Below, one piece after another: positions 42,760-46,141 of a DNA stretch of 64,000 bases. The DNA is from Candidatus Mediterraneibacter pullistercoris (GTDB lineage: Bacteria > Bacillota > Clostridia > Lachnospirales > Lachnospiraceae): assembly GCA_019116885.1 (NCBI GenBank), contig DXAU01000073.1, forward strand, positions 1-64,000. Direction: 5' to 3'. The position numbers were made by a program, and so were the translations under genes. The notes under the pieces are model-generated. The model was not told the origin of the DNA, searched no databases, and saw only the letters and a list, made by a program, of their open reading frames with translations. Position 1 is the first letter of the stretch. Every line of letters starts with the position of its first letter.

Positions 42760-43035
42760 CTATCCTCTCACAGAAAAACTCTTCTCGCCCTCTTCCAGCG
42801 GAATATCTTCCGTGTCCATCCAGTCGATGGAAATAAACCGGTCGTGGTTGAGCCCGACGAGCATCTTGTTGATAAGCGTATCGCGCCCCTGTACCTCAAG
42901 CGTAACCGTCCCGTCATATTCGTTCCGAACCCAGCCGGTAAGCTCCAGGGACTGTGCGAGATATTTCGCGGTGTACCGGAAGCCCACGCCCTGCACTCTC
43001 CCATGAAATACAATATGTCTTCTTACCTCTGCCAT
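42760..43035 (-). CDS. Acylphosphatase
   Basis: 91 residues, the full family length. HGRVQGVGFRYTAKYLA contains the phosphate-binding loop and catalytic Arg; VRNEYDGTVTLEVQG contains the catalytic Asn. Hydrolyses acyl phosphates. AAAAGGAGG precedes the ATG. Confidence 0.93.
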   Translation of the reverse strand: MAEVRRHIVFHGRVQGVGFRYTAKYLAQSLELTGWVRNEYDGTVTLEVQGRDTLINKMLVGLNHDRFISIDWMDTEDIPLEEGEKSFSVRG

Positions 43036-43094
43036 ATTCTTTTCCTCCTTTTCCTATTTTATCCTCTGCCCGTGAGAAAATCAATGAGTGATTC

Positions 43095-43123
43095 TTGTAT
43101 ATTCGCAGCCGCCATGTTATACT
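43095..43123 (+). promoter_or_regulatory. Promoter of the hydrogenase-maturation leader RNA
   Basis: -35 TTGTAT (43095-43100), 17-nt spacer, -10 TATACT (43118-43123). Transcription would begin near 43130, about 240 nt before the first coding start. Confidence 0.7.
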
Positions 43124-43124
43124 G

Positions 43125-43302
43125 TTCAGGACAAACGTTCTGACTGCAAAGGCTGTCGCTGTACAACCTGAGCAAAAAGGCGCAGATACCGGATCAAGCA
43201 TATCGGCGGAAACATCATTGGACAAGGAGCGCTGCCGCTCTGCTGTCCACCGTATCCTTGCACGATATTCTCATATTCCCTGCGCCTTCCGGCGCTTTTT
43301 TT
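43125..43302 (+). ncRNA. Structured leader RNA upstream of the hydE-hydG operon
   Basis: About 175 nt from promoter to intrinsic terminator. Pairings visible: CAGGAC/GTTCTG (43127-43132, 43137-43142); TCAGG/CCTGA (43126-43130, 43167-43171) as an alternative; GGCGCAG (43179-43185) with CTGCGCC (43280-43286); GATACCGG with CCGTATC (43250-43256); hairpin TGGACA/TGTCCA (43219-43224, 43244-43249). The CTGCGCC strand also forms the 5-prime arm of the terminator, so the long-range stem and the terminator exclude each other. This is the logic of a riboswitch that turns genes on. I cannot match it to a known class. Confidence 0.65.
43282..43302 (+). terminator. Intrinsic terminator in the hyd leader
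   Basis: GCGCC (43282-43286), TTCC loop, GGCGC (43291-43295), then seven T (43296-43302). It lies 70 nt upstream of the first gene and would abort transcription unless an antiterminator forms. Confidence 0.85.
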
Positions 43303-43371
43303 GTACCCGGATTTACCTGATTTTTCGCGCCGCCATAGAGAACGAAATAACCTCTGAAAGGAGACCGGATC

Positions 43372-43620
43372 ATGGAAACCAGAATCGCACTCATCGGCAT
43401 TATCCTGGACACAAGAGAATCTGTCGATGAACTCAACCATCTGCTGAGCCAGTACGGAGAATACGTGATCGGCAGAATGGGCCTCCCATATCGGGAAAAA
43501 GGCATCCACATTATCAGCGTGGCGATGGATGCCCCAAATAACGTCATAAGCGCTCTCTCCGGCAAACTGGGGATGCTGCCGGGGGTAAGCACGAAGACGA
43601 TCTACGGGAAAAACGTATGA
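43372..43620 (+). CDS. TM1266-like putative regulator of FeFe-hydrogenase system
   Basis: 82 residues of a small ferredoxin-fold (ACT/NikR-C-like) family found ahead of hydE: METRIALIGIILDTRESVDE and the GMLPGVSTKTIYGK ending. Called a putative iron-only hydrogenase system regulator by homology; it lacks a DNA-binding domain. GAAAGGAG ribosome site; overlaps hydE by 4 nt (ATGA). Confidence 0.88.
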   Translation: METRIALIGIILDTRESVDELNHLLSQYGEYVIGRMGLPYREKGIHIISVAMDAPNNVISALSGKLGMLPGVSTKTIYGKNV

Positions 43621-44678
43621 CAGGGGATCTTCAAATGCTGCAGGCACTTATCGACAAACTTGAGCAGACTCGTTCTCTTACCCGGGAAGAATGGATTGCT
43701 CTCATACGCGGACGCTCCCCCGAAGCCGCTGAATATCTCTTCAGGCGCGCAAGGAAGATCCGTGTACAACACTACGGCCATGACATTTATATCCGGGGGC
43801 TCATCGAATTTACGAACTATTGTAAAAACGACTGCTACTACTGCGGCATACGAAAGAGCAATGCGAACGCACAGCGATACCGTCTTTCAAAAGAAGATAT
43901 CCTCTCCTGCTGTGACACAGGATACCGCCTCGGCTTCCGCACATTTGTGCTCCAGGGCGGGGAGGACGGCTGGTTCACTGACGAACGGCTCTCTTCAATC
44001 ATCTCTGAGATCCGCAGACGGTGGCCGGACTGTGCCATCACACTCTCTGCAGGCGAGCGTTCCCGGGAAAGCTACCAGATGCTTTTTGACGCAGGTGCAG
44101 ACCGTTATCTGCTCCGCCACGAGACGTATGACTCTGACCACTATGGAAAACTGCATCCCCCTTCGCTCAGCGCCGCTCACCGGCAGAAATGTCTGTGGGA
44201 TTTAAAAGAGATCGGCTATCAGACAGGGACCGGATTCATGACAGGTTCGCCTTACCAGACTCCGGAGAATCTGGCGGATGACATGCTTTTTCTTGCCAGG
44301 CTCAATCCCCAGATGGTCGGCATCGGCCCTTTCATCCCCCATCATGAGACGCCTTTTGCCCGACAGCCTGCCGGAACCGCAGAACTTACGCTCTACATGC
44401 TGGGACTTATACGGCTCCTGATCCCTGCCGTGCTGCTTCCATCCACCACAGCTCTTGGAACTATCGTCCCGGACGGCAGAGAGCAGGGCATCCTCGCAGG
44501 CGCAAATGTGGTCATGCCGAACCTCTCCCCGCCGCAGGTCCGGGAGAAATATCTGCTCTATGACAACAAGCTCTGTACCGGCGACGAGGCGGCCGAGAGT
44601 CTGAGGAGCTTAAAGAAGAGGATGGAAGCCATTGGCTGCCATATCACTGTCGAACGGGGAGACTCCCTGAACCGATAA
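43617..44678 (+). CDS. hydE: FeFe-hydrogenase H-cluster radical SAM maturase HydE
   Basis: 353 residues. Radical SAM cluster motif CKNDCYYC (in FTNYCKNDCYYCGIRKSN), LQGGEDGWF, and the BATS-domain end. HydE helps form the dithiomethylamine bridge and the organometallic precursor of the H-cluster. Normal length. Translationally coupled to the TM1266-like gene; hydG follows 41 nt later. Confidence 0.95.
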   Translation: MTGDLQMLQALIDKLEQTRSLTREEWIALIRGRSPEAAEYLFRRARKIRVQHYGHDIYIRGLIEFTNYCKNDCYYCGIRKSNANAQRYRLSKEDILSCCDTGYRLGFRTFVLQGGEDGWFTDERLSSIISEIRRRWPDCAITLSAGERSRESYQMLFDAGADRYLLRHETYDSDHYGKLHPPSLSAAHRQKCLWDLKEIGYQTGTGFMTGSPYQTPENLADDMLFLARLNPQMVGIGPFIPHHETPFARQPAGTAELTLYMLGLIRLLIPAVLLPSTTALGTIVPDGREQGILAGANVVMPNLSPPQVREKYLLYDNKLCTGDEAAESLRSLKKRMEAIGCHITVERGDSLNR

Positions 44679-44719: not shown

Positions 44720-46141
44720 ATGTATGACGTTCATTCAAAATGTGCAGATGATTTCATCAGCCACGAGGAGATCCTTGATACACTTGCCTATGCAGACGAA
44801 AACAAAGAGAACATCGAACTGATCGACTCGATCATCGAAAAAGCCAGAAAGAGGAAGGGACTCTCCCACAGAGAGGCCTCTGTCCTGCTCGCCTGTCCTG
44901 TCAAAGAAAAAAACGAAGAAATCTACCGCCTGGCAGAACAGATCAAGAAAGACTTCTACGGAAACCGCATCGTCATGTTTGCGCCGCTGTATCTGTCAAA
45001 CTACTGCATCAACGGCTGTACATACTGCCCGTATCATGCAAAGAACAAGCGTATCCCGAGAAAACAGCTTTCTCAGGAGGAGATCAGAAGAGAAGTCATC
45101 GCGCTCCAGGACATGGGACACAAGCGCCTTGCCCTCGAGGCAGGAGAAGACCCTGTGCGCAATACGATGGACTATTATCTGAAATCTATCGAGACGATCT
45201 ACAGTATCAAGCACAAAAACGGCGCCATACGCCGCGTGAACATCAATATCGCCGCGACAACAGCAGACAACTACCGCCTCCTGAAAGAAGCAGGGATCGG
45301 CACATACATCCTCTTCCAGGAGACTTATCACAAGGAAAGCTACCTCGAACTCCATCCGACCGGACCGAAACATGATTACAACTATCACACAGAGGCAATG
45401 GACCGCGCCATGGAAGGCGGCATCGACGATGTGGGCTTAGGCGTTCTCTTCGGGCTGGACAAATACCGCTACGAATTTGCCGGACTCCTGATGCACGCGG
45501 AACATCTCGAAGCAGCGTTTGGCGTCGGTCCGCACACGATCAGCGTGCCAAGGCTCAAACACGCGGATGATATCAACCCGGACGACTTCGACAACGGAAT
45601 CGACGACGACACATTCGCAAAGATCGTGGCCTGCATCCGCATCGCGGTTCCTTACACAGGAATGATCATTTCCACAAGAGAAAACCAGAAGACAAGGGAG
45701 CGTGTTCTGCATCTTGGCGTCTCGCAGATCAGCGGTGGTTCCAGGACGAGCGTGGGCGGCTACTATGAACCGGAACCAGAAGATGAGAAATCCGAGCAGT
45801 TCGACGTCAGCGACAACCGGACCCTGGACGAAGTCGTTCGCTGGCTCATGGAGATGGACTATATCCCCAGTTTCTGCACTGCCTGTTACCGCGAAGGCCG
45901 CACAGGAGACCGGTTCATGTCACTGTGCAAGAGCGGCCAGATCCAGAACTGCTGTCATCCAAACGCACTGATGACGCTCAAAGAATACCTGATGGACTAT
46001 GCATCTCCTGAGACAAAAACAATCGGGGACCGGCTCATCGAGCGCGAAGTTCTCAATGTGCCAAATGAGAGAGCTCGTTCTGTCGTGCTGGAGAATCTCA
46101 GACTGATAGAACAGGATAACAGAAGAGATTTCCGTTTCTGA
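44720..46141 (+). CDS. hydG: FeFe-hydrogenase H-cluster radical SAM maturase HydG
   Basis: 473 residues. Radical SAM motif CINGCTYC, LALEAGEDP, and the C-terminal second-cluster domain with CTACYREGRTGDRFM and CCHPNA. HydG cleaves tyrosine to CO, cyanide and p-cresol and makes an Fe(CO)(CN)-cysteine synthon. Strong AAAAGGAG. hydF, the scaffold GTPase gene, is not next to it and not in the window. Confidence 0.95.
   Translation: MYDVHSKCADDFISHEEILDTLAYADENKENIELIDSIIEKARKRKGLSHREASVLLACPVKEKNEEIYRLAEQIKKDFYGNRIVMFAPLYLSNYCINGCTYCPYHAKNKRIPRKQLSQEEIRREVIALQDMGHKRLALEAGEDPVRNTMDYYLKSIETIYSIKHKNGAIRRVNINIAATTADNYRLLKEAGIGTYILFQETYHKESYLELHPTGPKHDYNYHTEAMDRAMEGGIDDVGLGVLFGLDKYRYEFAGLLMHAEHLEAAFGVGPHTISVPRLKHADDINPDDFDNGIDDDTFAKIVACIRIAVPYTGMIISTRENQKTRERVLHLGVSQISGGSRTSVGGYYEPEPEDEKSEQFDVSDNRTLDEVVRWLMEMDYIPSFCTACYREGRTGDRFMSLCKSGQIQNCCHPNALMTLKEYLMDYASPETKTIGDRLIEREVLNVPNERARSVVLENLRLIEQDNRRDFRF

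Follow-up and report, generated by a model that had tools for sequence, protein, structure and literature searches.

A conserved leader RNA ahead of [FeFe]-hydrogenase maturation genes, best read as an OFF riboswitch for H-cluster supply

We show that an uncatalogued cis-regulatory RNA precedes the TM1266-hydE-hydG genes of Candidatus Mediterraneibacter pullistercoris. Our preferred reading, to which we give a probability of roughly 0.55, is an OFF riboswitch that senses a metabolite and governs H-cluster supply. That this leader is a structured, conserved attenuator is close to certain. Computation reveals a covarying core, alternative pairings, characteristic gene contexts and a spread across the phylum. 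An initial annotation of the 64,000-nt stretch of DNA analysed here (the window; contig DXAU01000073.1, positions 1 to 64,000) had described a riboswitch-like leader whose folds exclude one another, and both the computed alternative folds and the covarying core support that description. The antiterminator role of one of its helices, the upstream core at 43134-43185, the phylum-wide spread and the importer context are points absent from that annotation.

The promoter, the leader and the U7 terminator that had been proposed ahead of TM1266-hydE-hydG are each present (Table 1). The terminator pairs GCGCC (43282-43286) with GGCGC (43291-43295), followed by T7 (43296-43302), and was listed by our simple scan. 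The leader promoter was missed by the same scan because TTGTAT agrees with the consensus at three of six positions and the rule demands four. Nevertheless, among 35 same-genus loci, which include the window's own and some near-copies, a -10 hexamer stands upstream of the core in all 35 and lies 12-13 nt from it in 33, and 34 have TTG where a -35 element is expected. A conserved promoter at this distance argues for a transcription start near 43130, and with the spacing kept in 33 of 35 loci the core should therefore be at the very 5' end of the transcript. The leader folds with a z-score of -2.46 (4 of 200 shuffles fold as well), and a loose pattern for the core finds a single match in the window and none in 100 shuffles. 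Downstream of the core, same-genus arms (43186-43279 here) often begin near AUAYCGG and end near UUUUGAUAU; the arm between core and terminator is possibly a second, genus-level element. On the minus strand near the leader, the simple scan also lists a promoter-like site (43084-43056), and the divergent minus-strand gene at 42760-43035 is one we take to be acylphosphatase-like.

Table 1. Predicted and identified features of the leader locus, in window coordinates
Feature	Position	Strand	Basis
Predicted promoter, TTGTAT-17-TATACT	43095..43123	+	Sequence; TTGTAT 43095-43100, 17 nt, TATACT 43118-43123
Leader RNA	43130..43302	+	Promoter spacing and terminator; start near 43130 predicted
Conserved core, candidate sensor domain	43134..43185	+	R2 match, 53.6 bits, E 3.7e-11 (searched in its own genome; the core itself belongs to R2's alignment); alignment A2
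P1 5' strand CGUUCU, U43139 bulged, pairs with 43178-43182	43136..43141	+	Covariation; nascent minimum-energy fold
P1b 5' strand UGC, pairs with GCA 43172-43174	43145..43147	+	RNAalifold; strongest covariation
P2 5' strand AGG, pairs with CCU 43167-43169	43150..43152	+	Covariation; fold
P2 3' strand (43167-43169), inner-loop GA (43170-43171), P1b 3' strand (43172-43174)	43167..43174	+	A2, covariation
Switching strand AAGGCGCAG, serving in full as antiterminator 5' strand and at 43178-43182 as P1 3' strand	43177..43185	+	Sequence, folding
Variable arm, core to terminator	43186..43279	+	Length and sequence differ among same-genus loci
Antiterminator 3' strand CTGCGCCTT, contains the terminator 5' arm	43280..43288	+	Sequence, folding
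Intrinsic terminator, 5-bp GC stem and U7	43282..43302	+	Sequence; simple scan
Shine-Dalgarno AAAGGAG for TM1266	43357..43363	+	Sequence
TM1266 family gene, first behind the leader	43372..43620	+	TIGR03959, 112.9 bits (cut-off 60.8); PF21699 above cut-off
hydE	43617..44678	+	TIGR03956, 588.6 bits
hydG	44720..46141	+	TIGR03955, 929.4 bits

The core, which is the likely sensor, is about 45 nt long and consists of three helices and conserved loops. Its consensus runs from P1 (CGUnCU/AGGCG, with one bulge) through a GAn/AAA loop, P1b (nnC/Gnn) and an AA/GA loop to P2 (AGG/CCU), which is closed by a variable hairpin in the consensus of our alignment A2; at the genus level, P2 is extended by pairing of 43154-43156 with 43163-43165. 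The stretch matches DNA in 35 of the 58 same-genus genomes searched (the window's own included), and this same-genus conservation resides mostly in the first ~70 nt (...CGUUCUGACUGCAAAGG-loop-CCUGAGCAAAAAGGCGC...). The initial annotation had proposed a search for covariation in homologues, and its claim survives that search: covarying pairs are present among the 64 distinct cores from genus, family, order and class that make up A2. Over 11 pairs, 94.7% of 701 cells form standard pairs, compared with 86.9% in column shuffles and 27-54% in controls with slid partners, and 73 cells are doubly changed, compared with 12.6 (sd 7.3) in shuffles, none of 500 of which reaches 73. P1 cells are paired in 94.6% of cases. 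The first pair of P1b is CG in 24 cores, UA in 24 and UG in 7, and its second is AU in 24, GC in 17, GU in 9 and CG in 8; the first pair of P2 is AU in 50, GC in 11 and GU in 3. Additionally, the loop bases outside the helices (GA, AA/GA and AAA) are conserved among distant relatives. The leader possesses, in short, what a riboswitch is expected to have at this level, a structured 5' domain supported by covariation.

Two models were used in the searches. R1 contains P2 and its genus-level extension without P1 and P1b, which were added in R2 after RNAalifold had shown P1b; the R1 structure was thereby rejected as an account of the whole core. The 27 of 64 A2 rows that were found with R1 pair in 127 of 135 P1 cells and in 74 of 81 P1b cells. 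RNAalifold alone predicts five pairs on A2 (two inner P1, three P1b) with a consensus energy of -0.53 kcal/mol, and the outer P1 pairs and all of P2, which it does not predict, were placed by hand before the counting. For many A2 rows the selecting pattern itself prescribed CTGA, AAGG and CTGAG, so that invariance at these places is partly selection. A2 left out near-copies and variants such as L033, L040, L041 and L043-L045, later matched by R2, as well as L175, whose 35-nt match upstream of TM1266 is weak, and L179 (a near-copy of L165); L158, L162 and L173, probably misaligned in P2, were kept and so count against it.

The pairing of GGCGCAG (43179-43185) with CTGCGCC (43280-43286) had been noted beforehand, together with the use of CTGCGCC as terminator 5' arm. 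Both hold: the pairing extends to 9 bp (43177-43185 with 43280-43288), and its 3' strand contains GCGCC at 43282-43286. This helix is an antiterminator. Since its 5' strand, the GGCGCAG helix extended by two A, also harbors the P1 3' strand AGGCG, a folded core frees the terminator. The minimum-energy fold of window RNA ending at 43185 is the covariation core (-11.1 kcal/mol); once the RNA is extended to 43290, the antiterminator forms while P1b and P2 persist; and at 43302 the antiterminator (-54.3 kcal/mol) is favoured over core plus terminator (-50.8 kcal/mol). Across the alignment, the core pairing appears in the nascent RNA of 61 of 64 loci, the exceptions being L003, L146 and L160. When the terminator 3' arm is missing, AAGG pairs downstream in 51 of 57 loci; at full length it pairs upstream in 35, downstream in 12, and is mixed or unpaired in 10, tallies that record the direction of pairing and not the exact partner.

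The two antiterminator strands vary together, being AAGGCGCAG and CTGCGCCTT in the window, AAGGTACGGC and GCCGTACC in L087 and, with one bulge, AAGGTGACGG and CCGTACCTT in L074. Paired with the terminator arm of its own locus, a segment has a mean energy of -10.65; the mean rises to -9.65 (sd 0.24) when arms are exchanged among loci and to -5.93 when segments are shuffled. Such exchanges reach the own-arm energy in 0 of 5000 trials overall and in 1 of 5000 for the 44 loci outside the genus. Locus by locus, 35 of 57 have a segment-arm energy among the lowest 5% of their shuffles; the other 22 do not, in part because the script picked another hairpin (as in L010, L038 and L120). Seven of 64 loci have a weak terminator or none. 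In L151 and L101, which lack a recognised terminator, the AAGG strand is placed as a Shine-Dalgarno sequence. In silico, the alternative folds therefore couple the core to either a terminator or a ribosome binding site, as would be expected of a riboswitch. Availability of AAGG corresponds to ON in both designs, from which we infer that a stabilised core corresponds to OFF.

These features suggest how the OFF riboswitch would operate. The core, with P1, P1b, P2 and two purine-rich loops, would fold first, its P1 3' strand AGGCG doubling as part of the antiterminator 5' strand that captures the terminator 5' arm. With no signal present, the antiterminator would displace P1 and TM1266-hydE-hydG would be transcribed; with signal bound, P1 would hold, the terminator arm would be freed, the terminator would form and transcription would stop.

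The RNA is found well beyond the genus. At E 0.05 or better, R1 matches 45 of 299 genomes in the family search; among the 30 matches listed, which include the window's own, 24 lie upstream of TM1266, hydE or hydG, two precede an importer and four fall inside unrelated ORFs. In the class search, R1 matches 33 of 391 genomes, and the 30 matches listed comprise 15 at hyd or TM1266 genes (one being the weak L175), one at an importer and 14 at neither. R2 matches 20 of 348 genomes in the phylum search, in 20 places (own included) of which 14 adjoin TM1266, hydE, hydG or hydF, two are contig ends (L237, L251) and four are neither. These large searches used stricter filters, with weak matches lost. 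Further numbers come from an exact-pattern scan of genome contigs, in which 32 of 35 stretches adjoin hyd or TM1266 genes and one an importer (two have too little downstream DNA), and from an order-level core pattern, which occurs in 5 of 295 genomes and gives 0 in a backward control. Matches judged false are L145, L149, L150 and L152 from the family search and L157, L159, L166-L172, L174, L176-L178 and L180 from the class search, all outside A2, and L243 (inside an ORF), L245, L250 and L252 from the phylum search, fetched after A2; the weak R1 family matches G181:C307, G095:C4 and G205:C10 (E 0.03-0.05) were judged not to be cores. The L252 match (G1083, E 0.043) stands before a 444-aa ORF that matches none of the hyd or importer references, and may be chance or another target.

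The controlled genes form a coherent set, again as a riboswitch would predict: TM1266, hydE, hydG, hydF and an importer. The RNA stands upstream of hydF in L244 (TIGR03918, 579 bits, read on L262, the same place), and in L253 an ECF S-component-like membrane protein (1116-1643; PF12822, 29.6 bits, cut-off 30.7) follows TM1266 behind the RNA, close to genes on the other strand that are presumably feoA/feoB-like. Separately, in L144 (G142, about 3081600-3083600), the hydE and hydG that directly follow the RNA are split over several reading frames. A first importer type occurs behind the RNA in L183-L186, L188, L259 and L260 (only the permease-ATPase in L188; a partial RNA match in L259 and L260), and its binding proteins share 46-52% identity with the first one in alignment A3. 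A second type occurs in L119, L120, L121 and L200. The importer binding proteins tested score below the NCBIfam cut-offs of SsuA-family models and above the cut-off of the broad Pfam model NMT1; PDB sequence searches returned relatives of the nitrate, taurine and sulfonate types, which gave no clear clue to the ligand. The first importer's binding protein was not found in the window's own genome, in a search that included no positive-control genome and so shows nothing. TM1266 belongs to the importer cluster in L184, L185, L186, L259 and L260.

Because the shared targets are maturases and an importer, the signal probably arises within H-cluster assembly, as an intermediate or a product, and we infer that it is sensed directly as a small molecule. 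The initial annotation had named iron, SAM, a CO/CN precursor and a redox-sensing protein as conceivable signals. An H-cluster-related metabolite is our first choice, and the TM1266 protein its chief rival. According to the latter possibility, TM1266, a protein of about 80 aa whose gene is often first, would bind the core hairpin, perhaps charged with a ligand or metal, and control the regulon, its own gene included, through the same antiterminator/terminator choice. We consider this possible and distinctly less probable than metabolite sensing. The core, as a simple hairpin bearing two small loops, would lend itself to recognition by a protein, and TM1266 follows the importer genes in L184, L259 and L260. 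It is also somewhat in its favour that TM1266 is present in 43 of 43 RNA-bearing genomes tested (18 + 25), even where it lies away from the RNA, compared with HydE above cut-off in 38; however, TM1266 marks the whole hyd system, and its co-occurrence is expected under any model. Moreover, the first gene can instead be hydE, hydF, hydG or an importer, and among 80 family stretches upstream of TM1266 R2 matches 24 at E 0.05 (13 of them A2 members) and 56 have no such match, so most TM1266 genes in the family have no recognised core directly in front. By sequence, TM1266 has one related solved structure, 2nzc, titled hypothetical protein.

For metabolite sensing, the identity of the metabolite may be reflected in the maturases that accompany the importer. 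HydE is not above cut-off in G142, whose hydE and hydG behind the RNA are fragmented, nor in G505, G424, G610 and G613. A HydG-like match, meaning a secondary match of 76-100 bits and not one from HydG's own model, occurs in 33 of 43 RNA-bearing genomes tested. It is absent from G505, G424, G610, G613, G223, G453, G460, G468 and G181, nine genomes of which four, G223, G453, G460 and G468, share a genus and which hence represent fewer than nine independent lineages. All seven RNA-importer genomes scanned for maturases lack a HydG-like match, and in the 33 genomes with one, none of the RNA loci fetched precedes an importer; in G453 and G181, which have no HydG-like match, the RNA stands before hyd genes. 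We searched for the H-domain (PF02906) in 19 genomes, including six of the seven RNA-importer genomes, and HydA-like proteins are present in five of these six (G424, G610, G613, G223 and G460; best or near-best matches of 297-321 bits), with no match in G505 (91% complete). Scored for sequence patterns that we take to be the three H-cluster motifs, L278 (G610), L277 (G223) and L281 (G460) carry all three and L274 and L282 two of three. HydE (580 bits) and HydF (581 bits) are neighbours in G223, G505 has a HydE-like radical SAM protein behind the RNA and the importer binding protein (L183 2269-3246; TIGR03956, 142.7 bits, cut-off 254.6), and G201 and G102 combine the first importer type with PF02906 matches.

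This pattern suggests that the importer may bring in a replacement for the products of HydG, or of HydE and HydG. It is therefore tempting, though decidedly speculative, to propose that the RNA senses an H-cluster building block, either an organometallic Fe-CO-CN species or a dedicated precursor, and that the co-controlled SsuA/NMT1-like importer salvages it. The odds of such salvage are raised by the importer-bearing genomes that have HydE and likewise lack a HydG-like match. Corrinoids are shared among bacteria, and salvage of an H-cluster building block would be comparable: bacteria without HydG, or without HydE and HydG, would run [FeFe]-hydrogenases on their neighbours' material.

Apart from TM1266, explanations other than an H-cluster-sensing OFF riboswitch fare poorly. 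An attenuator set only by transcription conditions, such as metal ions, NTP level, polymerase pausing or temperature, would do without a dedicated ligand, and the small gap between the window's alternative folds (3.5 kcal/mol) fits this idea; however, simple refolding does not need the conserved loop bases GA, AA/GA and AAA, and the gene set is narrow, which makes it an unlikely account. A divergent member of a known riboswitch class is very improbable: in agreement with the initial annotation, which knew of no class for this operon and named a known unrelated ncRNA as a possible counter-explanation, no Rfam 15 family reaches its gathering score in the 64-kb window or, a neighbouring tRNA apart, in 20 homologous loci. 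A loose Rfam scan of 43000-43400 gave two weak unrelated matches, BSnc150 (minus strand, 21.5 bits, gathering 73) and sR52, both rejected as chance. Ribosome-mediated attenuation by a leader peptide is rejected as scarcely credible, since a short ATG ORF (5-40 codons) that begins within the core or up to 40 nt beyond it exists in 21 of 64 loci but not in 43, both ATG and GTG are absent from the window leader (43130-43302), which has two TTG, and conservation sits in RNA pairs and loops.

To our knowledge, bacterial control of H-cluster assembly is largely open. An RNA placed before the maturases across the phylum offers a direct handle on this control, and so on H2 production, and it points to the small protein TM1266 and an importer as putative partners. 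The sensed molecule, in turn, would identify the pathway's key pool. A full-text search of part of PMC found no description of the leader RNA among its best matches.

Comparison with known systems places the leader RNA among regulators of a familiar design. The RAT elements of the BglG/SacY antiterminators are hairpins with small internal loops that decide the fate of a terminator, whose 5' arm they overlap. The core described here is likewise a hairpin with small internal loops deciding a terminator, but it lies at 43134-43185, clear of the terminator at 43282-43302, and TM1266 is listed as a family of its own. NiCo/czcD riboswitches act on metal exporters, targets that differ from those of our RNA, which has no match to them in Rfam. 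A possible link to iron is what the two may share, given that the NiCo/czcD riboswitch is reported, in work cited in PMC10043782, to respond to iron(II). The Moco riboswitch candidate has similar gene contexts, being described as an RNA upstream of cofactor biosynthesis genes and transporters (Regulski et al. 2008, PMC2408646), although its Rfam model has no match here and the cofactor is another one. A further parallel is with terminator-coupled OFF riboswitches in general, which have in common with our leader a conserved 5' core, covarying helices, competition between antiterminator and terminator, and coherent biosynthesis and import genes. They differ in that the leader has no Rfam match and that ligand binding is here a candidate function. 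The leader RNA represents a new class within a known kind of regulator, and its target is unusual.
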